Below, piece after piece: positions 1 through 39,016 of a stretch of 64,000 nucleotides of DNA. The position numbers and the translations under genes were made by a program. The notes under the pieces are model-generated. The model saw only the letters and a list, made by a program, of their open reading frames with translations. It ran no database searches and was not told the origin of the DNA. How positions within the stretch are numbered: the stretch's first letter is position 1; every line of letters starts with the position of its first letter. The stretch is from Gammaproteobacteria bacterium (lineage in GTDB: Bacteria > Pseudomonadota > Gammaproteobacteria > Steroidobacterales > GCA-2729495), in assembly GCA_030746435.1 (NCBI GenBank), contig JASLMV010000016.1:1-64000 (forward strand). Direction: 5' to 3'.

Positions 1-852
1 GCTCCGCAGGTACTCCAGCGGCACCCGGGGGTCGCTCTCGTCCACGAAGTTACCTTGTTCATCAAACTTCGGCGGCAGAATCGGCGGCACATAAAAAATA
101 TTTGGCCCCGTGCCGTACTCCGGGTGTAGTGGCAGGGCCACCTGCCACTGGTTCACCAGCTTGTCGATCGGGCCGTCGACATCCTCCAGGAAACCCACGA
201 AGCGCAGCCGCCCCGGGCATTGCCGGGCACAGGCCGGCGCCACGCCCTCCTCCAGCCGCGGAAAACAGAATATGCACTTCTGGCTCTTGCCGGTCACGTA
301 GTTAAAGTACACCTTGTCGTACGGGCAGGCCTTGTTGCACTCCCGGAAACCCTGGCACGCGTCCTGGTCCACCAGTACCACCCCGTCAGCCGCGCGCTTG
401 TAGATCGCCCGCACCGGGCAGGCCTCCAGGCACGCAGGCTTGGTGCAGTGGTTACACAGCCTTGGAACGTAAAAATGGTAGTTGTTCGGGTAATCACCGC
501 TGGAGGTGTCCTCGTCCCAGTTGGCCCCCTTGCCCATCGGCCGTTCCTGCTGTAACCGCGCCTCGGTACCCTCGAAGTACACCGCCCGGTGGTTTAAGGC
601 GATCTCCTCGCCGTGGTCTTCCTTCGCCGCCAATACCCCGGGCTTTAAGCCCGTGCCCGCCTCGTTCCAGCCACCCCCACCGTCTTCCCAGTAGCGCGGA
701 TAACCCGGCCCCGGCTTGGTCTCCACGTTGTTCCACAGCATGTACTCCTGGCCCGGCTCGTCCGTCCACAGGCTCTTGCACGCCGCCGTGCACGCCTGAC
801 AACCGATGCACTTGTTCAGGTCTATTACCATGGCTACTTGCTTGTCGGTCAT
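1..852 (-). CDS. Type II DMSO-reductase-family iron-sulfur (beta) subunit, partial
   Basis: The protein would pass electrons between a molybdenum catalytic subunit and a haem or cytochrome acceptor. The first 284 residues are visible and the C-terminus lies beyond the window edge. Four cysteine groups are seen: C15/18/21/25, C133/136/141/145, C166/172/176 with Phe169 where a fourth Cys is expected, and C193/196/208/212. The third group reads CQGFRECNKACP, which aligns with the NarH motif that has Trp at this position and binds a [3Fe-4S] cluster. The EbdB/DdhB/SerB/NarH class is therefore the best fit, rather than DmsB. The start is ATG at 852, preceded by GAGGTAGGAAGGT. It lies 182 bases downstream of the alpha subunit gene on the same strand, so the two probably form one complex. 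A gamma subunit and a TorD-like chaperone would be expected outside the window. Confidence 0.9.
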   Translation of the reverse strand, partial: MTDKQVAMVIDLNKCIGCQACTAACKSLWTDEPGQEYMLWNNVETKPGPGYPRYWEDGGGGWNEAGTGLKPGVLAAKEDHGEEIALNHRAVYFEGTEARLQQERPMGKGANWDEDTSSGDYPNNYHFYVPRLCNHCTKPACLEACPVRAIYKRAADGVVLVDQDACQGFRECNKACPYDKVYFNYVTGKSQKCIFCFPRLEEGVAPACARQCPGRLRFVGFLEDVDGPIDKLVNQWQVALPLHPEYGTGPNIFYVPPILPPKFDEQGNFVDESDPRVPLEYLRS

Positions 853-867
853 ACCTTCCTACCTCGG

Positions 868-940
868 TGGGTTCGCGCCTCGTCGCTCTCGGCCATCCAT
901 GGCCTTCGCGACATTCAGGCATCCTGCCCAGCAAAGCCGC
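868..940. repeat. REP-like palindromic repeat, copy 1
   Basis: This segment contains the imperfect palindrome GGCCATCCATGGCC followed by CGCGACATT and CCAGCAAAGCCGC. A close copy is at about 39205-39279 in the same orientation. It sits in the gap between the alpha and beta genes of the molybdoenzyme, just upstream of the beta start. Nothing coding is seen in 853-1034. Confidence 0.6.
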
Positions 941-1034
941 AAATATAAATTTTATTTAGCCCTTTCCTCGTGTATTACACCCGGCAAAGCGCTCCTACAA
1001 ATATTCTCCAAACCCCAAAATATGTTTGTTGGCG

Positions 1035-3788
1035 TCAGGAAATATATTTTTCAAAGTCCATCGTAAAGTCTGCAATAGTTAAATTCGGTTCAAACGCTAA
1101 TGAACGATACGCAATGTGTCCATAACCAAAAGCAACCGATGTCGGTTTTATCAGTCCGGACGTCGGGATCACCGCACCAAAATTCTTGCGGCCACGGAAC
1201 ATCATCGGGTCCCAGCCATGGTACATAAAAGTCATCCCGGGCTGCATCGCCGACGTGACATGCGCCATTGCGATGAATGAGCCGAAGGAATTGAAAGCGC
1301 GAAGCAAATCGCCATCCTCGACGCCCCGGCTGGCAGCATCGTCGGGGTTCACGTAAATGTCGGGCTCGCCGCGCTGCAGGCTGACGAGCAGCGGGTCATC
1401 ACGCCACATACTGTGGATTCCGTGCCGGGCATGGCCCATCAGCATGCGCAACGGATAGCCGGCGACTTCCAGCGGCTCTCGGTACCCGGGCAAGGCCTCA
1501 CCTTCCTCCAGGAACCAGTCGTGGTCTATATAAAATTGCTGGCGGCCCGTTAGTGTCTTGTACGGTTTCTTATCGCGGGTACTGCGGATTATCGTGTCGT
1601 GATAAGCAGAATGCTCACCGTATATAACGTCTTCGGCATCATTAGTCTTCATAATTCCATGGCGCGCCATCTCTTCGAACGGTACCTGCGGCAATCCCTC
1701 GTTCAGGGGAATCATGAAATTGAGGATGTCTTCGGTCGATTTAACTGTGCCGTTCTTCGTGTACAGCGTATGGAACTGCTTGAAGTCGCGGCTGACCGGA
1801 ATCTGGTAATTGTCCTGAACCGGTGGAACATCGCGCTCGGTCGCACGCTCGCTGATTGCGCGGGCAAGGGCTTCCAGCACGGCAAAATCGTCTTTGGCCT
1901 CACCGAGTGGCGGCACAGCCTCGTCCATCGCCTGCACATAAGGCGTGCGCGGCTCCAGCAACATATCCATGCGCTCGTAATGTCCGGCGGCAGGCAGAAT
2001 GTAATCGGCGTACATCGGTGTTGTACCCATATCCGGTGCCGCCACGACTATCGTTTCCAGCTCCTCGAGTGCATCTTTGCGCCAGCGCTCTGAGGAACCG
2101 CGCCAGTTGGCCGGGTTGAGCCCCATGAACACACCCATCTTCCAGTCAATATCGTCGTAATTCGGGTAGTTACCTTCGGTCTGCGCTATCCGGTTGTACT
2201 TGTCATGGTGCTCTGCCAGCTCGTTGCCGTAAATCTCGCGGTTCAACTCGATGGCATTTGTCTGGCTGTAATCCCAGCGTGCCATCGTCGCCACCCGCAG
2301 CGTCGGCGGAATCCCCTCGAACGCAAAAGCTGCAATATCTTCGTCCCTGGGCATGTTCCAGAGTTGTAAGCCGGTACCCGGACGACCAAGGTTACCGGTC
2401 ACCGAGAGCAACAACATGAATGCGCGTTGCATCAGGTCGCCGTGTAACCACTTGCAGACTCGATAGCCCGAAAAAATCATCGATGCCTCGGATTCGGCAA
2501 AGGTACGCGCGACCTGACGAATCACTGAGTGTGCAACGCCCGTGATTCCGGATACGGTTTCCGGTGTATAACGCCCGTCACACTCGGTCTTGAGTGCCTG
2601 GAATACAGTCGTGACTTCGACCGGACCGTTTGGCGTATCTACCGTCCACTTGCCGTCTAGCTCCGGATCGAGGTCGCCGAGTTCCAGCGAGCGGGTCTCG
2701 GGAACCGGCGGCGCACCCGGGATGGGCATCGTGAAACCTGTGCCGGGAGCCAGCTGTATCGCGTTGGTATTTTTGTCGTGGATATAAAAGAGCTGGTCGG
2801 CATTGTCCTCGGTAAGGCCGAGGTCCGTTCCGCGCAGGAACTTGCCGTTATCTATCCGCACGAGGAAGGGCAGATCGCTCTGCTCCTTGATAAAGGCGGC
2901 ATCGTGCAGACCCTCCGACAGAACAACCTGCACCATCGACATCGCCAATGCTGCGTCAGTACCCGGTTTAGGGTTCACCCACTTACTCGAGTGCAGCGCC
3001 GTCGGGTTAAATTCCGGCACAATGGTGATGACTTCCGTACCGTTGTAACGCGCCTCCCAGAAAAAGTGCGCATCAGGGATGCGTGTCACGGCAGGATTGC
3101 AGTACCAGATCAGGCAACATTTCGACTTGAATACCGATGCCATGGTGTCGCCGAGCAACGGCTCACCGACAGTCATGTATATGCCGGTCGGCAAATCGCC
3201 CACGCCTGCAAAACTCTCGGGCAGCTCCGCCCCCGTTATGCACTGGAAACGCGCGAAAGCCGCAAAAGTTGCACGCTTCAGGAGCATCTGCGTGCCCAGC
3301 CCGAAGGTTACCGAGCGCGGGCCCGTAGCCACGACATGATCGATGTAACGGTCTGCTATCTCGCTGGCCGCCTGCTCCCAGGTAATGCGTTCCCATTGAC
3401 CTGCGCCGCGCTCACCCACCCGTTTCAGCGGATAGAGTATGCGCTGGTTGCCGTACATGTATTTCGCATGGCGCAAGCCTTTCTGGCAACCGCGCGGACC
3501 GTAATCCGGTGTGTCCGGAGTTGAGGGTGCATATTCAGCCTGCTGTTCTTCCCGCCAGACGATACCGTTGCGGACATAGACATTAAACGCACAGTTGCCG
3601 GTACAGTTCGTCCCATGACTGCCGCGCACGACCCGGTCCCAGGTCCACTTGTTGCGCATGATGTCTTCCCAGCGCCGGTAAGCACCGCCGGCATGTCCAG
3701 TGGCGCCCAGACTCCCGTATCTGAGCGTCAGCAGCGCACCGCCGCTGCCTGCCAGAAAACTGCGTCGGCTGGTACTAAGGCTAGGCAT
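1035..3788 (-). CDS. Type II DMSO-reductase-family molybdopterin catalytic (alpha) subunit
   Basis: This is a 917-residue bis-MGD molybdenum oxidoreductase, expected in the periplasm after Tat export (twin-Arg SRRSFLAGSGG near the N-terminus). The FS0 iron-sulfur ligands are H58-x3-C62-x3-C66-x34-C101, the same spacing as NarG. D198 in GVGDLP aligns with the NarG YCDLPP aspartate that ligates molybdenum, which defines the type II branch. Relatives include ethylbenzene, p-cymene and steroid C25 dehydrogenases, which hydroxylate hydrocarbons with water, and DMS dehydrogenase. The exact substrate cannot be read from the sequence. Start is the ATG at 3788 with GGAGAG seven bases upstream. The beta subunit follows immediately downstream. 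A paralogue is at 32006-34756. Confidence 0.92.
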   Translation of the reverse strand: MPSLSTSRRSFLAGSGGALLTLRYGSLGATGHAGGAYRRWEDIMRNKWTWDRVVRGSHGTNCTGNCAFNVYVRNGIVWREEQQAEYAPSTPDTPDYGPRGCQKGLRHAKYMYGNQRILYPLKRVGERGAGQWERITWEQAASEIADRYIDHVVATGPRSVTFGLGTQMLLKRATFAAFARFQCITGAELPESFAGVGDLPTGIYMTVGEPLLGDTMASVFKSKCCLIWYCNPAVTRIPDAHFFWEARYNGTEVITIVPEFNPTALHSSKWVNPKPGTDAALAMSMVQVVLSEGLHDAAFIKEQSDLPFLVRIDNGKFLRGTDLGLTEDNADQLFYIHDKNTNAIQLAPGTGFTMPIPGAPPVPETRSLELGDLDPELDGKWTVDTPNGPVEVTTVFQALKTECDGRYTPETVSGITGVAHSVIRQVARTFAESEASMIFSGYRVCKWLHGDLMQRAFMLLLSVTGNLGRPGTGLQLWNMPRDEDIAAFAFEGIPPTLRVATMARWDYSQTNAIELNREIYGNELAEHHDKYNRIAQTEGNYPNYDDIDWKMGVFMGLNPANWRGSSERWRKDALEELETIVVAAPDMGTTPMYADYILPAAGHYERMDMLLEPRTPYVQAMDEAVPPLGEAKDDFAVLEALARAISERATERDVPPVQDNYQIPVSRDFKQFHTLYTKNGTVKSTEDILNFMIPLNEGLPQVPFEEMARHGIMKTNDAEDVIYGEHSAYHDTIIRSTRDKKPYKTLTGRQQFYIDHDWFLEEGEALPGYREPLEVAGYPLRMLMGHARHGIHSMWRDDPLLVSLQRGEPDIYVNPDDAASRGVEDGDLLRAFNSFGSFIAMAHVTSAMQPGMTFMYHGWDPMMFRGRKNFGAVIPTSGLIKPTSVAFGYGHIAYRSLAFEPNLTIADFTMDFEKYIS

Positions 3789-3818
3789 CAAAGAACTCTC
3801 CGCATAAGACTTAAATTA

Positions 3819-4481
3819 TCAAAACTTGTCGTGCTGGCCGGGCATGACAAAATCTTCCTGCCCGACAGGCCCCAGTATGAACTCCACCAGGGCCATCCGG
3901 TCGTTGCCAAACAGCAACTCGTTATCAACCAGCATCGAAGGCGTGCCGAAGCCACCTTTCTGCAACAAATCGTCAACGTTCTTCGCCACAGCGGCAACCG
4001 TTTCGGGCGCATTCAACTGCTCTTCGAACAGCTCCCTTTCCATACCCGCCGCTGCCGCAAGCTTGGTAACAACCTGCGTATCGCAGATATCGGCACCGGC
4101 ACCGAAACAGGCCTCGAATACCCCGTAGGTGTACCCCTCTGCCATGCCCTGGGCCGCAGCCACTACCCCGCCTTGCAACGCAGCCGCCGGATCGAACGGC
4201 CAGTTAGCCGGAAGGTTCATGGGGAGCCCCCAGAACCTTGCCCACTCACCCAGATCCCTGAGCTGCCACGCGGCCTTGGCCGGGTTAGCAGACAGGCGTG
4301 TTGCCTGCAGCCCGGGATTCTCGGTCGCCAGGATCTTCGTGACCGAAACCGGCCGGTAATTTATCCGGGTCCGGTTACGTGTGGCCACATCGAGCAGTCT
4401 GACGAAGCCTATAAAACTCCACGGGCACGAATAGTCAAAAAAAAAGTCAAGTTCGCCGCCCTCGGGCATGGTATCCGTCAT
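3819..4481 (-). CDS. DsbA-family / 2-hydroxychromene-2-carboxylate isomerase-like protein
   Basis: The 220-residue thioredoxin-fold protein belongs to the DsbA/KGST/HCCA-isomerase superfamily. The N-terminal strand LDFFFDYSCPWSF holds a Cys19-Pro-Trp-Ser site. This resembles the FrnE-type CPWC motif with the second Cys replaced by Ser, as in the glutathione-dependent isomerases, which use a Ser. The C-terminal GGFGTPSMLVDNELLFGNDR is the conserved closing motif of the family. HCCA isomerases act in naphthalene-type aromatic degradation and relatives are glutathione S-transferases. No signal peptide is seen, so it is cytoplasmic. It lies 9 bases after the acyl-CoA synthetase gene and 30 bases before the molybdoenzyme alpha gene, suggesting a shared transcript. 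A true disulfide role is unlikely without the second Cys. Confidence 0.8.
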   Translation of the reverse strand: MTDTMPEGGELDFFFDYSCPWSFIGFVRLLDVATRNRTRINYRPVSVTKILATENPGLQATRLSANPAKAAWQLRDLGEWARFWGLPMNLPANWPFDPAAALQGGVVAAAQGMAEGYTYGVFEACFGAGADICDTQVVTKLAAAAGMERELFEEQLNAPETVAAVAKNVDDLLQKGGFGTPSMLVDNELLFGNDRMALVEFILGPVGQEDFVMPGQHDKF

Positions 4482-4490
4482 GCAACGGTC

Positions 4491-6017
4491 TCACATCTCA
4501 CGCAATTCGGTCTTCAGTATCTTGCCGCTCGCATTCCTCGGCATCATGTCGATAAATGCGACTTCCTTGGGCGTCTTGACACTGGATATCTTGCCGTCGC
4601 AGTACTCGATAACCCCCTCGTCCTGCAATTCTGACCCGGGTGAACGCACGACAAAAGCCTTGAGCTTTTCGCCCCACTTTTCATCCGGAATGCCAACGAC
4701 GGCAACATCGATAATTTCCGGATGCCTGATCAGGGTTTCCTCAACTTCGCGCGGGTATACGTTGATGCCGCCCGTAATCACCATGTCCTTGATACGATCA
4801 ACTATGTAGACATGGCCTTCATCATCTCTCTTGGCGAGATCGCCGACGGTAACCCAGCCGTCCCGATAAGACTCGGCCGTTTCTTCGGGCCGGTTCCAGT
4901 AACCATTGAACAGGCTCGGCCCGTTGACGAACAGTTCGCCGACTTCCTCGGGGCCACATTCGCTGCCGTCCGGGTTGCGAATCTCGACCAGCGTTCCCGG
5001 AAAGGGCTGCCCGACACATGCGACCTTGCGTAACTGGTCGCCCGTCCGCAGGTTCGCGACGAAGCCGCACTCGGTCGAGCCGTAAGTTTCGTGCAGGATC
5101 TGGCCAAAATGCCCGATGATTTTTTCCTTCATCTTCTGCGCCAGCGGGGCCGCGTTAGAAATGATGGTGTGCAGGGTTTCGCTGCGGTACTTGTCGAGCA
5201 CTTCCTGGCCCAGCGTGAATATGACGTTGAAGTGAGTCGGCACTCCGAAAAAACCGGTAATTTCGGATTCCTTGAACCGGCGCACGATATCTTCCGGGTC
5301 AAACTTATCCGTGATCTCGACATAGCCGCCGAAAAAGATCGGTGCCAGTACGAAGGCCATGCCCGCCCCGTGACATATAGGCGCGATAGCCAGGAACCGG
5401 TCATCAGGGCCGAAGCACCCGTACTCAACTGATATCTGGTAGAGCGCGATCACGCGCGAACGATGCGTAACCAGTACGCCCTTCGGCTGGCCCGTCGTGC
5501 CCGAGGTATAGGGAATGGTGAAGGTATCCCACTCGTCAACTACCGGGAGCTCTGCTATAGGCGATTGTTTCGCCAGCCAGTCTTCATACTCGGCACCGAT
5601 TTCTATGATCGTTTTGACCGTCGCAAAATCCTGGTCACGGAGTACAGGCGCCACATCCGAGTCCGCAAATACAACCTGCGCCTCGGCATCGTCGCAGATT
5701 GCAACCAGTTCCGGCGGAGCAAGCTTGGGGTTGATCGTCGCAATCCCGACGCCGGCCTGCGACGAGCCGAGTACGATCTCAACAAATTCTATGCAGTTCC
5801 TCGAGATGACCGCTGCGTGCTGGCCGGAGGCAACACCGAGGCCATTCAAAATACCGCTCGTCACCCGGTCGAAGCGCTCAACGAGTTCGGTGTAGGTGCG
5901 TTGGTTATCGTTACAGCGCGCCGCAATCTTCGTGGGATTGCGTTTCATCGCAGCCCGTACACCGCCGGGCAACGACAGGTGCTGAAAGGAAAACGGCAGT
6001 TCGGCTTTCTGACCCAT
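4491..6017 (-). CDS. Acyl-CoA synthetase (AMP-binding enzyme)
   Basis: This 508-residue ANL-superfamily ligase would activate a carboxylic acid to its CoA thioester with ATP. Visible motifs are the P-loop YTSGTTGQPKGVLVTH, the YGSTECG motif, the hinge region GDLAKRDDEGHVYIVDRIKD, GGINVYPREVEE and the C-terminal catalytic lysine motif NASGKILKTEL. The ATG at 6017 is chosen because an upstream in-frame start would run into the preceding gene, which ends at 6022. It is flanked by an amidohydrolase-fold gene and a thioredoxin-fold isomerase. Together with the 4-hydroxybenzoyl-CoA-reductase-like enzyme upstream, it is a candidate to make the CoA substrate of that enzyme. Substrate specificity is not readable. 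Confidence 0.92.
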   Translation of the reverse strand: MGQKAELPFSFQHLSLPGGVRAAMKRNPTKIAARCNDNQRTYTELVERFDRVTSGILNGLGVASGQHAAVISRNCIEFVEIVLGSSQAGVGIATINPKLAPPELVAICDDAEAQVVFADSDVAPVLRDQDFATVKTIIEIGAEYEDWLAKQSPIAELPVVDEWDTFTIPYTSGTTGQPKGVLVTHRSRVIALYQISVEYGCFGPDDRFLAIAPICHGAGMAFVLAPIFFGGYVEITDKFDPEDIVRRFKESEITGFFGVPTHFNVIFTLGQEVLDKYRSETLHTIISNAAPLAQKMKEKIIGHFGQILHETYGSTECGFVANLRTGDQLRKVACVGQPFPGTLVEIRNPDGSECGPEEVGELFVNGPSLFNGYWNRPEETAESYRDGWVTVGDLAKRDDEGHVYIVDRIKDMVITGGINVYPREVEETLIRHPEIIDVAVVGIPDEKWGEKLKAFVVRSPGSELQDEGVIEYCDGKISSVKTPKEVAFIDMMPRNASGKILKTELREM

Positions 6018-6021
6018 AGCT

Positions 6022-6879
6022 TTAACCAGGCAGATTGAAAACCCGCAATGCGTTCTCACGCATCAGCATCTTCTTCGAGTCTTCTTTCAGGCCCAGCTCA
6101 TCAACTTCCTTAACGGCACGCTCCGGGTCAATTACGGGCCAGTCAGTACCGAACATGACCTTGTGCTTGCCGTAGCTATTGGCGTAGTGCACATACGCTT
6201 CCGGCCAGTACTTCGGCGCGTAGGCATCGCCCGCTGTGTAGATATTCTCATGCTTCCAGCACATCGAAATCATTTCATCCGTCCACGGGATACCGATATG
6301 GATACCGATTAACCTCAATTCTGGAAAATCGATCGCGACCTGGTCAAGCGTAATCGGCCTCGCAACACTCGGAAGCCGGCGCTCGCGTGAATAGATGAGG
6401 TTGTGCCCGACCTGCATCATGATTGGAATATCGAGTTCACAACATTTCGCATAGTAGGGGTAATACTGGGCCGCATCGGGCGCGAGTCCGCACCAGTGCG
6501 GGTACAGGTGCGCGCCGACAAAACCGTATTCCTTTACCGCCTCTTCGAGATCGCGCAGACCCTGCATACCGCGGAAGGGGTCCACGCCCGCCAGGCCGGA
6601 AAAGCGGTCGGGGTATTGTTCACAGATCGTGTGCACGTCGGCGTAGGGAATCTCGAAACCACCCTGCATGCGGATATCGCCGGCGCGGACCGCGATCAGC
6701 AGCGACCGCTCGATGCCAGCCGCATCCATCTTCGGCAGGTAATCCTCGATGGATACACCGCCGCACATGTCTTCGGGCATGCGTATCTGTGCCTTGAACT
6801 CGTCATCCAGGCCGGTCTGGCCCTTGCTGACGGTATCGGGCGTAAACAAATTGCAGACGATATCAATAACGCCTGGCAT
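6022..6879 (-). CDS. Amidohydrolase-2 family (ACMSD-like) protein lacking HxH
   Basis: The 285-residue TIM-barrel protein belongs to the amidohydrolase-related family that includes ACMS decarboxylase and 4-oxalomesaconate hydratase. The barrel signatures HLYPHW, QVGHN, GIHIG and the C-terminal FGTDWP (metal/general-base Asp) are present, with the usual ending RENALRVFNL. The N-terminal strand, normally DxHxH, reads IDIVCNLF, so both metal-binding histidines are missing. It may bind metal differently or act without one. It is cytoplasmic (no signal). It lies four bases upstream of the acyl-CoA synthetase start, so the two are probably translationally linked. Family assignment is firm and the reaction is unknown. 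Confidence 0.85.
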   Translation of the reverse strand: MPGVIDIVCNLFTPDTVSKGQTGLDDEFKAQIRMPEDMCGGVSIEDYLPKMDAAGIERSLLIAVRAGDIRMQGGFEIPYADVHTICEQYPDRFSGLAGVDPFRGMQGLRDLEEAVKEYGFVGAHLYPHWCGLAPDAAQYYPYYAKCCELDIPIMMQVGHNLIYSRERRLPSVARPITLDQVAIDFPELRLIGIHIGIPWTDEMISMCWKHENIYTAGDAYAPKYWPEAYVHYANSYGKHKVMFGTDWPVIDPERAVKEVDELGLKEDSKKMLMRENALRVFNLPG

Positions 6880-6938
6880 AGCTTCCCTTTCCTGTACCAG
6901 GAGCAGGGCCGCTTAGCGCGCCCCGCCCGATTTAGCGA

Positions 6939-7850
6939 CTACTGACCCTCGAGGTCCCACGGACCCACGGAACGCGACCGTACCGGAATACCCGATATCA
7001 CGGGTGGGTTCACGGCCGGATCATAATTAATGGCATCGCCCTCGATAACTACTTTCGAGTTGATGGTAATCCAGTTGATCAGGTCACCGTCCAGCCGGAA
7101 AACCCCCCACCAGCCTTTTTCTTCACCCGCAACGAAATGGCCGTGCTTGACCATCGCGGGACGGAAGAAATAGGTGCCGGCTTCGGCATGACCGAAGTTG
7201 TAATCCAGGCTGCCTTCGAGGCTATAGGCCTCTTCGAATACCGGGTGATGCACCAGGCGGTTGTCTGACCAGCCCGGTGGTGCCCATGCCAGCATCGTAA
7301 TAAAGCCGGTGTTGTTGTTTTTCGGCGACGCCGGATCGTGGAACAGCGGTTTCAGTTTCAGGAAGCGTTGCGTATCGCCTTCGTAGGCGTTCGGCATCCA
7401 CTCCATCCGGTTCGAGTCCACGACGGTCAGTTCGCCGCGCGCTTTGGACACCGTATTCTGGCCACGGGAAATAAACTTGGCGCGGTCTTGCTTCGAAACG
7501 CTAAAGCCCCAGTCACCGTACTCGCGGAACAGCAGGATGTCGGTGCCGGCATCGACCTGGACGGGAGGAACTGCAAGCCCTGCCGGCGCACGCCAGTAGC
7601 AGCCCTTCGTCAATATCCGGTTGCCGAGTTTGACCCGGCCGCCCATGATGTACCACTCCGTGTCAGCATCATGAAACCCGCCGGGGCGGCTCCACGCTTT
7701 CCTGAAGTGCAGCCGGGTAGATGCCGAACCGTCTTCTTCGTCAAACGAGAGGTTCCGCTGCACGACGTGTTGATTACCGGAGCCCTTCGGCAGCTCGACC
7801 TGGTGCCAGACGAGATCAGCGTCCTGGATTGCTTCTACGTGCGGTCTCAC
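6939..7850 (-). CDS. Two-domain cupin-like protein (DUF4437-like)
   Basis: This 303-residue cytoplasmic protein appears to hold two cupin folds. The first is around residues 45-120 (ADTEWYIMGGRVKLG, then CYWRAPAGLAVPP). The second is around 185-275 (VFEEAYSLEGSLDYN, then AGTYFFRPAMVKHGHF). Histidines that could bind metal remain in the second half (HHPVFEE, KHGHF), whereas the first half has few. Such bicupins include dioxygenases and isomerases of aromatic metabolism, but no particular activity can be assigned. Its start overlaps the stop of the preceding lysine-tailed gene by 4 bases (ATGA), indicating translational coupling. Confidence 0.7.
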   Translation of the reverse strand: MRPHVEAIQDADLVWHQVELPKGSGNQHVVQRNLSFDEEDGSASTRLHFRKAWSRPGGFHDADTEWYIMGGRVKLGNRILTKGCYWRAPAGLAVPPVQVDAGTDILLFREYGDWGFSVSKQDRAKFISRGQNTVSKARGELTVVDSNRMEWMPNAYEGDTQRFLKLKPLFHDPASPKNNNTGFITMLAWAPPGWSDNRLVHHPVFEEAYSLEGSLDYNFGHAEAGTYFFRPAMVKHGHFVAGEEKGWWGVFRLDGDLINWITINSKVVIEGDAINYDPAVNPPVISGIPVRSRSVGPWDLEGQ

Positions 7851-11229: not shown

Positions 11230-11231
11230 AC

Positions 11232-23997: not shown

Positions 23998-24012
23998 GTG
24001 GAGGATATAAAT

Positions 24013-30338: not shown

Positions 30339-30463
30339 TGCTGCCTTCCGAAGGATTTGCCCCGCACAGCCTAACCTATACGCGGACGCGCCGCATTGCA
30401 GCCAACTCCCGGCCGGCACCGGTTTGATACGATGAGGCTCTTCCAACGGAGGGCTGCAACGCC

Positions 30464-31588: not shown

Positions 31589-31590
31589 AG

Positions 31591-32005: not shown

Positions 32006-34756
32006 CTAAGCGGCTTCCGTGTACTTCTCGAAATCGACAGTCGAGTCACTATATGTCTGGTTGGGCACCGATTCCGGCGCGCGGTGATTGAGCTGCCCGT
32101 AACCGCCAACCATCTGCACCGGTTTTATCAGGCCGCCAGTAGGTATGACCGAGTTAAAGTTTTTCCGGTCACGGAACAGCATCGGATCCCAGCCGTGATA
32201 CATGAACATCTGTTTCGGCTGCATGCTCGAACTCACGTGCGCCATGGCCACAAAATCACCAAGTCCGTTAAAGATACGGATCAGGTCGCCGTCTTCTACA
32301 CCACGCTCCGCCGCATCATCCGGGTTCACATAGATGTCCGGCTCACCGCGCTGCAGGCTTAAAAGCAATGAGTCGTCACGCCACAGGCTATGGATTCCGT
32401 GCCGTGCATGGCCCATGGTCAGGCGTATGTCATAACCGGGGTTCGACAACGGCGATTTATACATAGGTAGCTGTTCACCTTCGGCAAGAAAGGTTGCTTC
32501 ATCGAGGTAAAACTGCTGTCGACCGGTAATGGTTTTGTAAGGCTTCTTGTCTTTAGTACTGGCCAGCGTTCGATAACTGAATGGCGAAGCCGGTCCGAAC
32601 TGTACATCGTCGCAATCGTCGCCGCGCATCATGCCCTGTCTTGCGAGTTCATCGAACTTGACTTTCGGCGTACCCAGCGAATTTTCCAGGAGATATTCAA
32701 CGGCATCAGAATCCTGCATAAGCCGGCCGCCCAGCGTGTACTGATCGTAAGCCAGGCTGTAGTCGCGTGGTAACGGATTGCCAAACAACATGTCCTGAAC
32801 CGGCTCCAGGTTGCGTGCCAAAGCGATCTGGCTGATACGTTGACAAAGCCTGGCCATGATGTCCCAGTCGCTGAGCGATTCACCGACCGGAGATACTGCC
32901 TGGTCCATCACCTGTATGTACGGCGTACGCCCCTCTAGCGTGATGTCACGCTTCTCGTACTGGTGCGCGACAGGTAACACGTAATCCGAATACATGGCCG
33001 ATACACTCATGTCGGGCGTCATTGCAACGAGTGTCTTAACTTTCGACATCGCGCTTTCATAAAAACGCTCACCGGAGGCGCGCCAGTTCATCGGGTTGTG
33101 GCCTGCCAGTATTGCCATATTCCAGGGCTTGGCACCGAAGTCCGGCAACCAGCGGTTTAAAAGCGCTTTCCGGTAATGCTGATCGATATGCTCGGCCATT
33201 TCCTCGCCATACATGGCGGCATTCAGCTCCCTGCCATTGGCCTTGGCGTAATCCCAGACAGCCAGTGAAGCAATGCGCAGCTGCGGGCCCATGCCATCGA
33301 ATACCAGTTTGAACAGGCCGTCAGGCCGCGGCAGGTTGGTCGTCTGCACACCGCCGCCCGCTCGTCCGGTGTTTGCAGTCAATGCTGACATCAGGAGCCA
33401 CGCGCGGTTCAGCAGATCGCTGTGTAACCATTTATTCACTCGATAGCCCGCAAAAATCATCCCCGGAGGCGATGCTGCAAACTTGCGCGCGACCTGGCGT
33501 ATTACATCCGCACTGATTCCGGTCTCTTCGGCAACGTCTTCAGGGCGATAACGGTTAGCGGTTTCACGGGCCAGTTCGAACACGGTGGTGACTTCAACGG
33601 GTCCTTCCCCGGTTTCAACCGTCCAGCTGCCTTCCAGTGCGGGTTTCAGATTACCGAGCTCAAGGTTCTCCTCCACGGGGGAAAACTCGGGGTTGTACAT
33701 CTCATCGTACCGGGTCGATGTTGCCGGCGCTTTGGCAATCGAATCCGTCGCTTCATCCCAGACAAAGAAACCATGCTCACCGATACCCATCTCCCTTGCA
33801 CGCAGAAAGCGCTGGTTATCCTTGCGCACCAGGAACGGCAGATCAGTCTGTTCGCGAATGTAATCCCATTCAATTTTGCCGTCTTCGAAAATTACCTGCA
33901 CCATTGCCATGGCGAGCGCCAGGTCGGTGCCGGGTTTTACATTCAGCCACTTCGAAGCATGAATTGCACTGGCATTGAATTCGGGTGAGATAACAATGAC
34001 CTCGGTGCCGTTGTATCTCGCTTCCCAGAAAAAGTGCGCGTCCGGAATGCGTGTCGCAGCCGGGTTACACGCCCAAACGAGGCAGGTACGCGACTTGTAG
34101 ATTGCCGCCATGCTGTCGCCCGGTAAGGGATGGCCGATAGTCTGCTGGGCGCCCAGGGGCAAATCACCTACACCTGCAAAAGTTTCGGGCACGGTTATGC
34201 CGGTAATATTGGCAAAGCGGAAGAAACCGGCGAAGGTCGCACGCTTCAGGATCATGGCAGTACCCATTGCCATCGTGATCGTCTCCGGCCCGTCTTCGAC
34301 CGCGTAATCGACTATTTTTTCGGCGACTTCTTCTATCGCCTGGGTCCAGGTAATCCGTTGCCACTTGCCTTCGCCGCGCTCGCCCGCACGCTTCATCGGG
34401 TACAGCACCCGTTGCTGCCCGTACATGTACTTGGCCTGCCGCAAACCCTTCTGACAACCGCGCGGCCCGTAATCGGGAGTATCTTCACCCGACGCACCGT
34501 ATTCGCCCTGCTGTTCCTCGCGCCAGACGATGCCGTTGCGCACGTAAATGTTAAAAGCGCAGTGACCCGTACAGTTAATGCCGCGACTACCCCGTACAAC
34601 CCGGTCCCAGGTCCACTTGTTACGCGCGATATCTTCCCACCGCCGGTAAGCTCCACCTTCATGACCTGCAGCACCCGCTGCACCGTACTTGAGAGATAGC
34701 GCCAATGCGCCGCTACCTGCCAGGAAAGTTCTCCGATCAGTTGAGATTGAGTTCAT
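32006..34756 (-). CDS. Type II DMSO-reductase-family molybdopterin catalytic subunit, copy 2, altered FS0 site
   Basis: This 916-residue paralogue of the 1035-3788 protein has the same Tat signal (DRRTFLAGSG) and the same Mo-ligand position D198 in GVGDLP. The FS0 site differs: H58 is Arg (GSRGINCTGHC), whereas C62, C66 and C101 are retained. The codon is CGC, one base from His. A His or Cys at this position binds the FS0 cluster in NarG-type enzymes, so FS0 may be altered or lost. The start is ATG at 34756 with GGAG nine bases upstream. No beta or gamma gene adjoins it, so it may use the beta subunit at 1-852 or another acceptor. Relatives act on hydrocarbons or small sulfur/nitrogen compounds. 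Confidence 0.9.
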   Translation of the reverse strand: MNSISTDRRTFLAGSGALALSLKYGAAGAAGHEGGAYRRWEDIARNKWTWDRVVRGSRGINCTGHCAFNIYVRNGIVWREEQQGEYGASGEDTPDYGPRGCQKGLRQAKYMYGQQRVLYPMKRAGERGEGKWQRITWTQAIEEVAEKIVDYAVEDGPETITMAMGTAMILKRATFAGFFRFANITGITVPETFAGVGDLPLGAQQTIGHPLPGDSMAAIYKSRTCLVWACNPAATRIPDAHFFWEARYNGTEVIVISPEFNASAIHASKWLNVKPGTDLALAMAMVQVIFEDGKIEWDYIREQTDLPFLVRKDNQRFLRAREMGIGEHGFFVWDEATDSIAKAPATSTRYDEMYNPEFSPVEENLELGNLKPALEGSWTVETGEGPVEVTTVFELARETANRYRPEDVAEETGISADVIRQVARKFAASPPGMIFAGYRVNKWLHSDLLNRAWLLMSALTANTGRAGGGVQTTNLPRPDGLFKLVFDGMGPQLRIASLAVWDYAKANGRELNAAMYGEEMAEHIDQHYRKALLNRWLPDFGAKPWNMAILAGHNPMNWRASGERFYESAMSKVKTLVAMTPDMSVSAMYSDYVLPVAHQYEKRDITLEGRTPYIQVMDQAVSPVGESLSDWDIMARLCQRISQIALARNLEPVQDMLFGNPLPRDYSLAYDQYTLGGRLMQDSDAVEYLLENSLGTPKVKFDELARQGMMRGDDCDDVQFGPASPFSYRTLASTKDKKPYKTITGRQQFYLDEATFLAEGEQLPMYKSPLSNPGYDIRLTMGHARHGIHSLWRDDSLLLSLQRGEPDIYVNPDDAAERGVEDGDLIRIFNGLGDFVAMAHVSSSMQPKQMFMYHGWDPMLFRDRKNFNSVIPTGGLIKPVQMVGGYGQLNHRAPESVPNQTYSDSTVDFEKYTEAA

Positions 34757-34849
34757 GCAGGGGGTCTCCGCAGGAGTTTCCATGAATTGTGGTTAGTGCA
34801 GAAAATACACCATCCGGACAGGCAGTGTAAGGTTTGCTTACGGCAGACC

Positions 34850-35923
34850 TCAGAGCAAACCTGCGTCCGTCAGTCGTTGGAGGATATTGTCCTGGCGCTC
34901 GCGGAACCAATCGCGGTCGGGCGGCTCCTGTACTTTCCCGTCACGCAGCAAACCATTGCCGGTACGAATGGGGTAGGTCGAATACATCAGCGCATAGATA
35001 TCAGTGGGCTGGCGTGACAACAGGTTAGCCATCCCGAGGCGGCGGCGCTGCTCACGCTGTGCATTAATATCGATTACCGCGTGCGCGAGCATGCTCTCGC
35101 CGCCTTCGGCCGCCGCAGCCATCGTGTCGCCATGGTAGTCGACAACTTTCGACATGCCGCTGCAGGTATACGCGGGTATCGGGATGTCATCGATAGAAGC
35201 TGTATTGGCTGAGATAATATAGATGGCATTCTCGATAGCGCGCGCCTTTCGGCATGCCTCACGGTCGGTGGTCTTCGGGCTGCCGGGTTCACTCGTCGGG
35301 TGAATGAGCACTTCGGCGCCACGTAGTACATTGGCACGCACCAGCTCCGGCCACATGATTTCTTCCGAAGCAATACAGGCCAGATTGCCGATCTCGGTCT
35401 TCGCAACAGGGAACACTCCCTCGATTCCGTAAACCTCGAGGTACTTGTCCCAGATATCGTGCGGCGTCACTTCGAAGCTCGATGACAACCGGCGGTATCG
35501 AAGCACAACATCTCCGTTCGGGCCGACGATAAAACTGGTCTGGAAATACAGTTCCGGAAAATTCGGGTCGATTTCGTAGACATTGCCTGACAGATAGATA
35601 TTGTTTTTCTGGGCGAGTTCCCCGAGGAATTCATACTCCGGGCCGTCATAGTCGATCGCGGCTTTGGCGCGCCATTCTTCATGACTGTTACCCAGCGGGA
35701 ACCCGGAAAGAAAGTACTCCGGCAACACAACCAGCCGCACGGTGCTGCCGTTATGGAAGTGCACGAACTGAACGTTGGTAGTCACGTAAGCAGCGATGCG
35801 TTCCAGCGACGCCATGCGTACCTTCGCCGCCGCTTCGGCATCAGGACAGAGATTCACCGTCTTGCAGGCAATCTGCAGTGCGGTGGCCGTGTAGAGGGGA
35901 ACCGTCTCGATCGTATCTGACAT
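34850..35923 (-). CDS. Nitrilase-fold protein with Ser in place of catalytic Cys
   Basis: This 357-residue nitrilase-superfamily protein is paralogous to 22942-23997. Glu (LPEYFLSGFP) and Lys (LRYRRLSS) are kept, but the nucleophile site reads SEEIMWPELVR where the paralogue has CAEIMYPEAAR. Catalytic Cys is thus Ser. Such a change usually abolishes or greatly reduces amide/nitrile hydrolysis, so it may be a non-catalytic or acyl-transfer variant. ATG at 35923 follows GAGAAAG. It is 93 bases upstream of the molybdoenzyme alpha gene on the same strand, and convergent with nothing on its right side. Confidence 0.88.
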   Translation of the reverse strand: MSDTIETVPLYTATALQIACKTVNLCPDAEAAAKVRMASLERIAAYVTTNVQFVHFHNGSTVRLVVLPEYFLSGFPLGNSHEEWRAKAAIDYDGPEYEFLGELAQKNNIYLSGNVYEIDPNFPELYFQTSFIVGPNGDVVLRYRRLSSSFEVTPHDIWDKYLEVYGIEGVFPVAKTEIGNLACIASEEIMWPELVRANVLRGAEVLIHPTSEPGSPKTTDREACRKARAIENAIYIISANTASIDDIPIPAYTCSGMSKVVDYHGDTMAAAAEGGESMLAHAVIDINAQREQRRRLGMANLLSRQPTDIYALMYSTYPIRTGNGLLRDGKVQEPPDRDWFRERQDNILQRLTDAGLL

Positions 35924-36082
35924 GCTGCTTTCTCGTTGTTTAGCGGGGCGCACAGGAATGGCACAACCTTTTAGTCGAGTCTGGCCAATTTTGAGAGACC
36001 TGCTCAAGTACTACAGCAGGTGTGCTTTACCAGATGGTCACGCCTGTATAATTCCCCGGTTCTTCGCTACCGGGAAACTCGC

Positions 36083-37252
36083 TTGAGCGGTTTCAGCGAC
36101 ATAAAAACAGCACTGGATGAACGTGAGCAGCTCGGGCTTTACCGTCGTCGGCGGACTGTCGCCTCGGCACAGGGGCGGGAACTGGTCGTGAATGGCAAGC
36201 AACTCCTGAACTTCTGCAGCAACGACTATCTCGGGCTCGCAAATGACGAGCGTGTCCGGGCAGCTTTCAAACAGGGTATCGACGACTGGGGCGCCGGCAG
36301 TGGCGCGGCCCACCTCGTCAGCGGGCACACTTCCGCCCATCACGAACTTGAAACTGCGCTGGCGGAATTCACCGGTCGGCCCCGCGCCCTGCTGTTTGCG
36401 AGTGGCTATGCGGCCAACCTGGGCACCATCAATGCGCTTGTGGGCAACGGCGATCACGTCCTGGAAGACCGGCTGAACCATGCCTCACTGCTCGACGGCG
36501 GCCTCATCAGCGGCGCACGTTTCCAGCGTTACCAGCATCGCAACACCGAAGACCTGGCGGGCAAACTCGAGCAACTTGACCCTGCTGACAAGCGTGTACT
36601 GGTGGTCAGCGATGGCACATTCAGCATGGACGGCACGACCTGCGATATAGCAACGACTGCAGGTATCTGTGGCCGTAACGGTGCGTGGTTCATGGTCGAC
36701 GAAGCGCACAGCCTCGGCGTAACCGGTGACCGGGGCCAAGGGCTGGTCGACCCGCAGCAACACGGCACAGAATCGGTACAGATCCTGATCGGAACACTGG
36801 GTAAAGCTTTCGGTACCCAGGGTGGGTTCGCCGCCGGCAGCGAGGAGTTGATCGAAACCCTGATCCAGCAGGCGCGTACTTATATATACAGTACTGCACT
36901 GCCCGCCGCCGTTGCGGTTGCCACGCTTGCGAGCCTGGAGATCGTTGCGGAAGAAAGCTGGCGACGCCAACGCCTGGCGGAACTTAGCGGGCGCTTCCGT
37001 GAAGGCGCGCGGGAGCTGGGCCTGGAGTTGTCAGACTCCCCGACACCCATTCAACCCGTGATACTCGGCGACGAACGCAGTGCACTGCAGATGAGCGCAT
37101 TACTGGAAGAACAGGGACTCATGGTTACGCCGATCCGGCCGCCGACTGTACCGGCGGGCACATCACGGTTACGAATTACGTTCATGGCCACACATACCGA
37201 TGACGATCTGGATAAATTGCTGACCGCACTTGCCACGGTTTCAGACACATGA
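36083..37252 (+). CDS. bioF: 8-amino-7-oxononanoate synthase
   Basis: The 389-residue PLP enzyme condenses pimeloyl-thioester with L-alanine in biotin synthesis. N-terminal LSGFSDIKTALDEREQLG and NFCSNDYLGLA are BioF signatures. The PLP lysine is in LIGTLGKAFGTQGG, and SGHTSAHHELE, DEAHSLGVTG are also seen. TTG at 36083 gives the normal N-terminus; a GTG at 36020 would add 21 residues not typical of the family. It overlaps bioD by ATGA (37249-37252). Confidence 0.95.
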   Translation: MSGFSDIKTALDEREQLGLYRRRRTVASAQGRELVVNGKQLLNFCSNDYLGLANDERVRAAFKQGIDDWGAGSGAAHLVSGHTSAHHELETALAEFTGRPRALLFASGYAANLGTINALVGNGDHVLEDRLNHASLLDGGLISGARFQRYQHRNTEDLAGKLEQLDPADKRVLVVSDGTFSMDGTTCDIATTAGICGRNGAWFMVDEAHSLGVTGDRGQGLVDPQQHGTESVQILIGTLGKAFGTQGGFAAGSEELIETLIQQARTYIYSTALPAAVAVATLASLEIVAEESWRRQRLAELSGRFREGARELGLELSDSPTPIQPVILGDERSALQMSALLEEQGLMVTPIRPPTVPAGTSRLRITFMATHTDDDLDKLLTALATVSDT

Positions 37253-37929
37253 GCAACGCATTCTTTGTAACGGGCACAGATACGGCGGTCGGTAAAACAC
37301 TGATCGCACGAGCCCTGCTGAAACTAGCCCGTGATGCAGGCCAAGATACACTCGGGCTGAAACCGGTATCGGCCGGCTGCGAGTTACGTGGCGATATCCT
37401 GGCAAATGACGATGCGTGGAAGCTGATGCACGAGTCATCATGCAAGCCGTCTTACGAAGCTGTGAACCCGGTAGCCCTGAAAGAGGCCATGGCGCCGCAC
37501 ATCGCGGCCACGCGTGAGGGCCGTACCCTTGCGGTTGACAGTCTCGTCAAACACTGCAGGCCCCTGATCGACGGAGCCGATTTTACGGTTATCGAAGGCG
37601 CCGGAGGCTGGGACGTGCCGCTTAACCAAACCGAAAGCATGGCCGACCTGGCAGCCGCACTGGGTTGCCCGGTCATCCTGGTCGTCGGTGTCCGGCTGGG
37701 TTGCCTGAATCACTCGTTGCTGACCGCGCGCGCGATCCGGGAACACGGGCTGGAACTGGCGGGCTGGGTGGCCAACCGCATCGATCCGCACATGCCGGTC
37801 GCGGAGGAGAATATTGCGGCCCTGAAGGACCGGTTGCCCTGCCCGTTGCTCGGTACAGTCCCGTGGCAGGATGACGTCAGCATCGCAGGCGTCGCTGCAT
37901 CGCTCGACATCTCACAGCTGATGGACTGA
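37249..37929 (+). CDS. bioD: Dethiobiotin synthetase
   Basis: The 226-residue cytoplasmic ATP-dependent ligase closes the ureido ring of dethiobiotin. The P-loop is GTDTAVGKTLIA, with LKPVSAGC and EGAGGWDVPL as the other nucleotide and substrate loops. It is translationally coupled to bioF through ATGA. bioA is 3.4 kb downstream, separated by unrelated genes. bioB, bioC and bioH are not in the window. Confidence 0.96.
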   Translation: MSNAFFVTGTDTAVGKTLIARALLKLARDAGQDTLGLKPVSAGCELRGDILANDDAWKLMHESSCKPSYEAVNPVALKEAMAPHIAATREGRTLAVDSLVKHCRPLIDGADFTVIEGAGGWDVPLNQTESMADLAAALGCPVILVVGVRLGCLNHSLLTARAIREHGLELAGWVANRIDPHMPVAEENIAALKDRLPCPLLGTVPWQDDVSIAGVAASLDISQLMD

Positions 37930-37958
37930 GTGACAGGATCCAACATAAATAGTAGTTT

Positions 37959-37976
37959 TAAGGGATTGTTCCCTTA
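37959..37976. other. Short hairpin downstream of bioD
   Basis: The 7-bp stem TAAGGGA/TCCCTTA with a TTGT loop lies 29 bases after bioD. No T-run follows, so it is not a classical terminator. It could be an attenuating hairpin or operator ahead of the DUF1838 gene. Confidence 0.35.
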
Positions 37977-38020
37977 TGATAGGGACATATCAGAATAAAA
38001 AATCTCTAGCGGAGGGGACC

Positions 38021-39016
38021 ATGGACAGTAACTGGATGATGAAGCCACGCAGCCGGCGCGATGCGCTGCTCGGCATCGGCGGTGTCACAGCGGGCAGCAT
38101 GCTGCTCGGCGCTTGCGAACCGTCGGCCGAAAAACCATCGGGTGGCGTTGAGAGGGTTTCGGCTGATTTCAGCGACCCCAAGCAAAGCCTCGATGCCTTT
38201 ATAAAGCTTACGGGCGACCTTGACCCGAAGAAAGAAACGCCCGGGTGGTTCGGCGGCATGGTATTCGGCGATACCCGGCGCGACCGCCCGCTACGGCCGC
38301 TTTTCGGAGTACAGGGTTTCGGCGTGGTACGAACGGAAGAACAGCCCGATGGCTCGTTCAAAGTTTTTAACCGTGAACTCGCCTTCTACACCGACCCCAA
38401 GACAGGTAAATTTATTGACAGGTGGAAGAACGCATATACAGGTGAAATGTGTGACGTTAAACCGATCCATAATATGACTGTAAACGCACACCTCATCGTC
38501 AGCGAAAAAGTCGGCACCGCGATCGAGATGGACTTTGACGGCACGTTGATGGAGGTTCCGTTACCGTTGGGATGGGATACCTTTGGCGACAAGGTATTTT
38601 CCAACTTCGAAGTGCACACGGCATTTCCGAACGAACTCAAGCCCGAAGTCTGGCCACGGGAATCGGCCGGCAAAGTATTGCGCATTGCCGAGATTTTCCA
38701 GCGTGTAGCAAGCCTTTCCGATGTCGAGAACAGCAAAACGACCAGTGCCGACTATTCTGGCACCTGGACCCGGGTTGGCCCCTGGTTGCCGTGGATGCGC
38801 CAGGGCCAGGCCGACGGCAGCCTCATATTCCGCACCTTCATGACCAAGCTCGAGTCGGTCGATCAGATACCGCCCGACCTCAAGGCGATCACCGAGGAAC
38901 GCCTGCCGGATTATTTCCAGGCGCCGCCCCCGGAAACCTGGGGGGGCAAGAACGACTCAAGCTTCAGCGTCTACGTGCGGGAAAACGATCCGCTGCCGCC
39001 ATTAGACAAGGAGTAG
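38021..39016 (+). CDS. DUF1838 family Tat-exported lipoprotein
   Basis: This 331-residue protein has a twin-arginine signal (RSRRDALLGIGG) and a lipobox LLGAC (followed by Glu), so it is predicted to be a Tat-dependent lipoprotein. The mature part aligns with the cytoplasmic copy at 17894-18808 (FGVQGFGVVR, PEVWPRESAGK, TWTRVGPWLPWM). Function is unknown. The start is ATG at 38021 with GGAGGGG upstream. Tat export suggests that the fold is completed, possibly with a cofactor, before secretion. It interrupts the biotin genes. Confidence 0.78.
   Translation: MDSNWMMKPRSRRDALLGIGGVTAGSMLLGACEPSAEKPSGGVERVSADFSDPKQSLDAFIKLTGDLDPKKETPGWFGGMVFGDTRRDRPLRPLFGVQGFGVVRTEEQPDGSFKVFNRELAFYTDPKTGKFIDRWKNAYTGEMCDVKPIHNMTVNAHLIVSEKVGTAIEMDFDGTLMEVPLPLGWDTFGDKVFSNFEVHTAFPNELKPEVWPRESAGKVLRIAEIFQRVASLSDVENSKTTSADYSGTWTRVGPWLPWMRQGQADGSLIFRTFMTKLESVDQIPPDLKAITEERLPDYFQAPPPETWGGKNDSSFSVYVRENDPLPPLDKE

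Follow-up and report, generated by a model that had tools for sequence, protein, structure and literature searches.

Repeated catabolic gene families in a 64-kb gammaproteobacterial contig stretch: a probable mosaic of separate modules, two of them with type II-like molybdenum enzymes

The first 64,000 bases of a contig of 69,905 bases (C7) from a gammaproteobacterial genome (2.43 Mb in 38 contigs, 96.84% estimated completeness), hereafter the window, carry two or three copies each of five gene families: Rieske oxygenases, DUF1838 proteins, nitrilase-fold proteins, molybdenum (Mo) enzyme alpha subunits, and short-chain dehydrogenases/reductases (SDRs) with lipoprotein-like leaders. Very probably the window is a mosaic whose modules were inherited independently of one another, and the genome around it is rich in Rieske oxygenases and DUF1838 proteins. 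Module A is a family-wide locus around one Mo alpha subunit (MoA1). Module B is a family-wide operon of a nitrilase-fold gene, a second Mo alpha subunit and an iron-sulfur beta subunit (Nit2-MoA2-beta), which lies here beside biotin genes. Island C is one patchily distributed cluster comprising glutathione S-transferase (GST), Rie1, cupin, SDR1, NmrA-like, Nit1, major facilitator superfamily (MFS) transporter and Rie2 genes, of which Rie1 and Rie2 are Rieske genes and Nit1 a second nitrilase-fold gene. The two DUF1838 genes (D1838a and D1838b), SDR2 and Rie3 are separate from modules A and B and from island C. As a whole, this mosaic combined with the mechanism proposed below is likely the best explanation of the window. 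Contigs of the window genome (G000) are designated by C numbers, genomes by G numbers and fetched loci by L numbers.

A sequence-only reading of the window had reported the five repeated families and ascribed them to one duplicated pathway, or to two related substrates. All eleven genes were confirmed by Pfam and, for the Mo alpha subunits, by TIGR03479 as the best NCBIfam model. Pairwise identities within the window are 56% for Mo alpha, 42-53% for Rieske, 35% for nitrilase-fold, 34% for SDR and 32% for DUF1838 proteins. The genome as a whole holds 15 full Rieske genes (a 16th match of 34.9 bits at C32:112563 was left out), 13 DUF1838 genes, 12 CN_hydrolase matches and five Molybdopterin-family matches, together with eight SDRs close to SDR1/SDR2 in the genome stretches fetched. 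The numbers expected per 64 kb are 0.40 for Rieske, 0.34 for DUF1838 and 0.32 for CN_hydrolase, and 3, 2 and 2 are seen (Poisson P 0.008, 0.047 and 0.041, uncorrected for the approximately 38 windows in a 2.43-Mb genome). Copies in the window exceed chance weakly, as a mild enrichment.

The origin of the copies was examined through identities for Rieske, DUF1838, SDR and nitrilase-fold proteins and through a tree for Mo alpha only. In the identity matrix of the genome's own copies, the Rieske, DUF1838 and SDR copies of the window are not mutually closest paralogues. Rie1 is nearest to copies at C32:27481 (53%) and C35:73539 (52%) and shares 40% with Rie2 and 43% with Rie3; Rie2 is nearest to C1:92729 (54%), and Rie3 to copies on C16 (54-55%) and C20 (54%). 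D1838a and D1838b are both nearest to C34:21821 (39% and 33%) and 30% identical to each other. SDR1 is nearest to C11:237121 (50%) and SDR2 to C36:29102 (44%), with 35% between the two. For the nitrilase-fold proteins the comparison is nearly even (Nit1 nearest to C1:80903 at 37%, Nit2 nearest to Nit1 at 34%), and MoA1 and MoA2 are each other's sole match in the genome at E <= 1e-60.

The co-occurrence of the five families in other genomes, which the sequence-only reading had itself put forward as a check, was followed at 80 loci of D1838a homologues from named records (many without full 10-kb flanks; genes scored by best window match at 50% query coverage) and at 40 Mo loci. The latter comprise 20 MoA1 loci of relatives and 20 MoA2 loci from 20 genomes, picked after the adjacency to Nit2 was visible in match coordinates. 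The five families do not travel together: the 80 D1838a loci hold a Rieske gene once, Nit1-like genes three times, Nit2-like and SDR1-like genes once each and SDR2-like genes 12 times, and the 40 Mo loci hold Rieske once, SDR1/SDR2 once and DUF1838 six times (all six at MoA2). Thus, the two outcomes that the same reading had named as contrary to its proposal, absence of co-occurrence and unrelated paralogues, were largely found, since the families rarely co-localise and, by identity, the window copies of Rieske, DUF1838 and SDR are not sisters. Its view of parallel expansion beyond chance survives in two respects, the pairing of Mo alpha with nitrilase-fold genes and the covariation of Rieske and DUF1838 counts, and fails for a single five-family kit. 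An ancestral block of all five families, duplicated and diverged into two pathways for related substrates, would fit the presence of each family in two to three copies within 64 kb, the 56% identity of two Mo alphas whose orthologues both have nitrilase-fold neighbours, and the correlated Rieske and DUF1838 counts. However, such a block is absent from all relatives' loci examined, the window Rieske, DUF1838 and SDR copies have closer relatives than each other, Rie1 and Rie2 share one island, and D1838b is an insertion, which together make this origin highly improbable. The sole parallel theme is Mo alpha with nitrilase-fold neighbours (20 of 20 MoA2 loci and 13 of 20 MoA1 loci), and Nit1, one of the two nitrilase-fold genes named in the sequence-only reading, is not part of it.

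Module B consists in the window of MoA2 (32006..34783, minus strand) and Nit2 (34850..36007, minus strand; likely start at Met 35923, as inferred). In 20 of 20 fetched loci, MoA2 is preceded on its own strand by Nit2, with a stop-to-stop distance of 2.8-3.1 kb, and beta follows MoA2 in 18 of the 20 (19 by clustering), the other two running off contig ends. Among the other 19 relatives, Nit2-MoA2 adjacency is apparent from coordinates in 14. SDR46 lies near MoA2 in 15 of the 20 loci. MoA2 is matched in 39 of 40 family genomes (own included), 35 of them with two or more matches, counts that include fragments and a third type at 36-37% identity (G005, G013). In four loci (L170-L173) bioF-bioD-bioA adjoin Nit2-MoA2 as in the window, and bioD and bioA are adjacent without a DUF1838 gene between them, so D1838b (37976..39016, plus strand), which lies between bioD and bioA, is an insertion in the window. 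The bioF and bioD genes (36020..37929, plus strand) are named by domain and order.

Both Mo alphas resemble type II enzymes and fall below the curated thresholds. MoA1 and MoA2 score 836.6 and 840.8 bits against TIGR03479 (cut-off 984.75), which is still the best NCBIfam model for both, and 446.9 and 447.8 bits against the ethylbenzene dehydrogenase equivalog NF042978 (cut-off 2000 bits). At the FS0 iron-sulfur site, the His, Cys, Cys, Cys set is complete in MoA1, with the His kept in 21 of 21 MoA1 rows of the alignment. This His is Arg in all 21 MoA2 rows; all three Cys are retained, and each of the 21 rows has gained a His before the second Cys. One paper (PMC8840923) describes the FS0 His as apparently invariant throughout the subfamily. 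Given the replacement of the His by Arg, MoA2 is classed as a type II-like variant and not as a standard member. The Asp aligned with the Mo-ligating Asp of PcrA and EbdA is kept in 42 of 42 rows, as is the Lys aligned with EbdA Lys450. By eye, MoA2 has a leader with a twin-arginine motif, and Nit2 has no visible signal peptide. No haem-binding gamma subunit was recognised by eye among the genes recurring in at least four of the 20 MoA2 loci, no genome-wide search for one having been made.

The nitrilase-fold partner of MoA2 is equally unusual. Nit2 scores 93.1 bits against PF00795 (cut-off 23.2), and its AlphaFold2 model (predicted local distance difference test, pLDDT, 85.7) has the aliphatic amidase 2uxy as best Foldseek match (E 3.1e-21). 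The catalytic Glu-Lys-Cys triad is replaced by Glu-Arg-Ser, with the Glu kept, in the window protein and in 20 of 20 orthologues. The same Glu-Arg-Ser is found in five of five Nit2 homologues (44-53% identical) from other gammaproteobacterial families; besides G000 and G004, these are the five genomes with a match at E <= 1e-60 in a class sample of 369 genomes. Nonomuraea gerenzanensis also has it, in a reading frame that is 47% identical. Since Glu-Arg-Ser is fixed across 44-73% identity, Nit2 appears to have changed function and not to be decaying. Matches are present in 264 plasmid records for Nit2 (12 listed), 11 for D1838a (all listed) and 735 for MoA2 (8 listed); of four plasmid-record regions inspected, three are without annotation and the fourth names no function.

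Outside the family, the 3-4 kb surrounding each of the five Nit2 homologues contain no Mo alpha, nor does the longer context of four of them, and at E <= 1e-150 MoA2 is without a match in all five genomes. Three of the five lie beside an aldehyde dehydrogenase gene and near a GntR/UTRA regulator (L225-L227; Pfam on one each). A DUF1838 gene lies within a few kb in two of the four longer contexts (L227, L228). In the same 369 genomes, a close MoA2 match is present only in two genomes of the window's own genus, with two others at 36%, so the MoA subfamily appears family-specific in this sample. Absence from the sample is a weak sign, because at most five Nit2 candidates (E <= 1e-60) and two MoA2 candidates (E <= 1e-150) were scored per genome.

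Two other roles for Nit2 were weighed. A true hydrolase with Ser as nucleophile in Glu-Arg-Ser, acting on an amide or ester derived from the MoA2 product, would agree with the intact fold, the amidase as best structural match (E 3e-21), and the fixation of both Ser and Arg across 44-73% identity, unlike a decaying pseudogene. Ser alone is usually a poor stand-in for the nitrilase Cys. Moreover, the titles of 5h8l and 6ypa report ligand-bound structures of relatives with the Cys changed to Ser or Ala, and this role is considered unlikely. Alternatively, Nit2 could serve MoA2 alone in maturation or docking, for example by guiding the loading of cofactor ahead of export, and so make up for a function that disappeared with the FS0 His. 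The operon-like order in 20 of 20 fetched loci, the fixed unusual substitutions in both proteins and the absence of a visible signal peptide on Nit2 beside the twin-arginine leader of MoA2 (both by eye) suggest such a partnership; however, Glu-Arg-Ser Nit2 occurs in five genomes of other families that have no MoA2 match at E <= 1e-150 and no Mo alpha in the surrounding stretches seen, three of these adjoin aldehyde dehydrogenase genes, and a Nitrate_red_del-type chaperone gene is present on C35. A maturation factor is accordingly quite improbable.

The mechanism proposed for Nit2 and MoA2, which is drawn from sequence features, is offered tentatively. MoA2-beta would be exported by the twin-arginine route, and MoA2 would carry out water-dependent oxidation of a hydrophobic substrate at Mo, like the type II hydroxylating dehydrogenases, with electrons reaching beta through an FS0 that is modified or absent. 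Nit2 would stay in the cytoplasm and bind or convert a pathway intermediate without Cys chemistry, and would not be a classical amidase. Module A would add coenzyme A (CoA) activation. Island C may represent an ordinary aerobic route, in which the MFS carrier would provide transport and the two demethylase-type Rieske enzymes would perform mono-oxygenation or demethylation steps, alongside SDR and GST reactions and amide cleavage by Nit1 as a true amidase. A bolder reading of the same features is that Nit2-MoA2-beta could be a new type II-like Mo system, in which an alpha subunit whose FS0 is rebuilt or missing depends on a repurposed nitrilase-fold partner; Nit2 would then have moved, through Glu-Arg-Ser, from amide hydrolysis to new chemistry or to the handling of substrate or cofactor. 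This bolder reading is doubtful.

Next to module A, at the contig end, lies a beta subunit gene (1..852, minus strand), which the sequence-only reading had overlooked. Cut by the contig end and directly downstream of MoA1 (1035..3791, minus strand), it scores 439.2 bits against TIGR03478 over model positions 1-279 of 321 (cut-off 480.7). A second beta copy at C35:49800-50801, behind the Nitrate_red_del-type gene, exceeds the cut-off with 500.1 bits, and the two copies share 93% DNA identity over 853 columns. The MoA1 contig of G006 (L193) likewise ends at the start of a beta gene, and near-repeats of beta probably explain these contig breaks. The rest of module A (3819..7850, minus strand; Pfam) encodes a DsbA-like protein, an AMP-binding CoA ligase, an Amidohydro_2 protein and a DUF4437/cupin protein, which recur on the same strand at 17, 16, 15 and 12 (cupin) of the 20 MoA1 loci. 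A nitrilase-fold gene with intact triad lies near MoA1 in 13 of the 20 loci, and a second one, with a Cys-to-Gly change, in 11. The genome's own nitrilase pair matching these MoA1 neighbours sits on contig C22 (64174-66606) and not beside MoA1; the Cys-to-Gly change was seen in the own copy and in the copies of all 11 relatives (within L190-L208). Near MoA1 in relatives, a UbiD-family gene is found at 11 loci (Pfam on one) and a probable TonB-receptor gene at 10 (by eye). In a maximum-likelihood tree of 42 rows, one branch with support 100/99 separates 21 MoA1 from 21 MoA2 sequences, with seven genera on both sides. As the two sides share seven genera, the MoA1/MoA2 split looks older than the sampled genera.

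Island C runs in the window from 18835 to 24615 on the plus strand (GST, Rie1, cupin, lipoprotein SDR1, NmrA-like, Nit1 and an unknown 205-aa protein; Pfam) and resumes at 28962..31588 with the MFS transporter (minus strand) and Rie2 (30464-31588, plus strand). Rie1 occupies 19508-20719 (the Met at 19571 is the start given in the sequence-only reading), SDR1 21402-22223, and the CN_hydrolase protein Nit1 22942-23997 (plus strand). Two genes without a Pfam family at E 0.001 interrupt the island (24625..28965); in L210 (G079) the 205-aa gene and the MFS gene do not have them in between. That locus carries GST (73%), Rie1 (75%), cupin (78%), SDR1 (71%), Nit1 (91%), the unknown gene (68%) and the MFS gene (82%) without NmrA, and its second Rieske slot is closer to Rie3 (70%) than to Rie2 (50%). 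L211 (G159) lacks MFS and carries Rie1 (73%, truncated at the contig end), NmrA (65%), Nit1 (88%), the unknown gene (75%) and a Rie2-type gene (67%), and the 4-kb contig L212 (G015) has Nit1 (86%), the unknown gene (63%) and MFS (69%). At 62-91% identity, the island is thus seen with context in two other genera (L210, L211), and a third genus has part of it (L212). No match to D1838a or PadR was found in L210. Rie1 and Rie2 are parts of this one cluster. Nit1 keeps Glu-Lys-Cys in its own sequence and in five of five orthologues. Orthologues that are 86-91% identical occur in genera g4, g7 and g5, and among same-genus genomes two have matches of 57-59% and the other two none that close. Between G000 and G079, MoA1, MoA2 and Nit2 are only 60-61% identical. 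Given the high cross-genus identity against this background, island C looks horizontally or patchily inherited.

Several observations weigh against the mosaic of modules and its details. The window has somewhat more Rieske (P 0.008), DUF1838 and nitrilase-fold genes than expected, and in the window genome beta follows MoA1 and not MoA2. The 20 MoA2 loci were selected after adjacency had already been seen, and adjacency is not visible in G008, G012, G015, G154 and G155; G015 has no MoA2 match, and in the other four the MoA2 piece lies mostly at a contig end. The Mo alpha tree has no outgroup, and row L207 (G007) joins the base of its MoA1 side by a long branch. G000 and G079 are less diverged at beta (77%) and SDR46 (63%), which leaves few genes to carry the horizontal reading of island C. 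A dedicated Mo-enzyme role of Nit2 is weakened by the lack of Mo genes near Nit2 outside the family. Finally, a functional tie between DUF1838 and Rieske proteins is possible, given the over-representation in the window and a 10-kb proximity above random.

D1838a (17894-18808) lies with a PadR regulator at 17346..18808 (plus strand; Pfam), and D1838a and D1838b score 145.4 and 149.1 bits against PF08894 (gathering score 25). The closest D1838a homologue in a named record, 86% identical, belongs to a gammaproteobacterial metagenome-assembled genome, and the best match of the D1838a sequence to solved structures has E 0.32. In a set of 147 genomes of the order, DUF1838 counts are correlated with Rieske counts (Spearman 0.56), as they are across 16 family means (0.78), the genomes being related, 85 of the 147 having no DUF1838 gene, and the DUF1838 counts of several being 'at least' values (best 17 candidates scored). 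Inside the window's own family the coefficient is 0.71 (n=27). Among the seven families tested alone, it is weaker in three (f14, 0.62, P 0.10; f6, 0.43, P 0.06; f7, 0.41, P 0.04) and negative and non-significant in f2, f11 and f13. Genome G020 has 30 DUF1838 matches in one search and at least 18 in another beside 8 Rieske genes, and the eight genomes of f13 have 13-20 DUF1838 (mostly 'at least') and 4-13 Rieske genes, so the two families can expand apart.

DUF1838 proteins might be functional partners of the expanded Rieske oxygenases, as ligand-binding barrels of the same catabolic lifestyle. The covariation of counts is consistent with this, as are a confident, beta-rich, barrel-like model (pLDDT 88.8), which resembles lipocalin-like and other barrels weakly (Z at best 8.3), and a DUF1838 pair behind a TonB receptor in Novosphingobium sp. 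P6W. However, a Rieske gene is present at only one of the 80 D1838a-homologue loci, the correlation is clear in the own family alone among the seven, and both families could merely track a catabolic lifestyle; the partnership is rated somewhat unlikely. As the main explanation of the window, DUF1838-Rieske linkage was dropped, for only 1 of the 13 own DUF1838 copies lies within 5 kb of a Rieske gene (P 0.54) and 4 of 13 within 10 kb (P 0.04). A function read from structure was likewise rejected, the top Foldseek row having E 8e-5, a template modelling (TM) score of 0.22-0.26 and a root-mean-square deviation of 11.4, and the VIA match (Z 8.3) being middling. DUF1838 genes are present at 6 of 20 MoA2 loci, three from genus g9 and two from g4, vs none of 20 MoA1 loci (Fisher P 0.02); the link between DUF1838 and Nit2 is a lead only.

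Other arrangements of DUF1838 genes were also recorded. On the Novosphingobium sp. P6W plasmid (L237, NZ_CP030354.1), two DUF1838 genes follow the TonB-dependent receptor gene, with a serine hydrolase on the opposite strand. A D1838a-type gene lies beside bioA in four loci of other records (L100, L111, L124 and L127), with bioD in all four and bioF in three. DUF1838, SDR and Mo hydroxylase large-subunit genes (the last like 8397-10742) are found within approximately 5-17 kb of each other at C11:259398-264532, L160 and L166.

The remaining window features lie between and beyond the modules. A three-subunit Mo hydroxylase (8397..12254, minus strand), similar to 4-hydroxybenzoyl-CoA reductase (TIGR03194, 1rm6_B), adjoins aerobic-looking genes. 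The flank of module B (41289..48225; Pfam) holds bioA, a glycosyltransferase, a membrane protein, SDR46 and a luciferase-like oxidoreductase, and L170-L173 share parts of this flank. Further along are the lipoprotein SDR2 (56802..57611, plus strand; Pfam), which is not linked to modules A or B or to island C, and Rie3 (62151..63260, plus strand; Pfam), alongside a TonB-dependent receptor gene that the window end truncates (63319-63984). Rieske and VanA_C domains score above cut-offs in all three window Rieske copies. SDR1 and SDR2 bear lipobox-like leaders by eye. Leader peptides are present on SDR1 and its seven own paralogues, three lipobox-like by eye, and SDR1 has YxxxR and the C11 copy MxxxK in place of the catalytic YxxxK. 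For this leader-bearing family, enzymes dependent on nicotinamide adenine dinucleotide outside the cytoplasm would be odd.

The analysis removes the tempting but wrong account of one duplicated kit. In its place stands a family-wide Mo enzyme that departs at an iron-sulfur ligand described as fully conserved in its subfamily (PMC8840923). Its operon partner is a fixed non-canonical nitrilase-fold protein, which an actinomycete and further families of Gammaproteobacteria also have. That DUF1838 counts rise with Rieske counts is a first lead for a family that a single paper names in the literature searched. In that literature, nothing was found on the dimethyl sulfoxide (DMSO) reductase family with a nitrilase in an operon, on a carbon-nitrogen hydrolase in a gene cluster with a molybdopterin oxidoreductase, on a link between nitrilase, ethylbenzene dehydrogenase and Rieske, on nitrilase pseudoenzymes with regard to the catalytic cysteine or catalytic triad, or on Rieske paralog expansion in metagenome-assembled Gammaproteobacteria.

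Among known systems, the closest to module B is the type II DMSO reductase family (ethylbenzene dehydrogenase, perchlorate reductase, steroid C25 dehydrogenase), with which it shares the Mo Asp and a TIGR03478 beta subunit. MoA2 is similar over its whole length to 5e7o (E 1.4e-155), presumably PcrA, and to EbdA, 2ivf (E 5e-124). Unlike members of that family, MoA2 lacks the FS0 His, MoA1 and MoA2 both fall below the TIGR03479 cut-off, and a nitrilase-fold gene lies within the MoA2 operon. The Nit2 model matches 2uxy, 5g3p and their relatives in the nitrilase superfamily (aliphatic amidase, formamidase, N-carbamoylputrescine amidase) but differs from these enzymes in its fixed Lys-to-Arg and Cys-to-Ser changes. 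The window Rieske genes resemble VanA/NdmA-type monooxygenases, NdmA and SxtDIOX/SxtT being the best solved relatives of Rie2, and differ in the presence of 15 copies in a 2.4-Mb genome. The Mo hydroxylase at 8397..12254 is closest to 4-hydroxybenzoyl-CoA reductase in its large subunit (TIGR03194) and in its flavin adenine dinucleotide (FAD) subunit (1rm6_B), with which four insert cysteines of the FAD subunit align, whereas the large subunit, at 568.6 bits against this best NCBIfam model, lies below the equivalog cut-off of 994.55.

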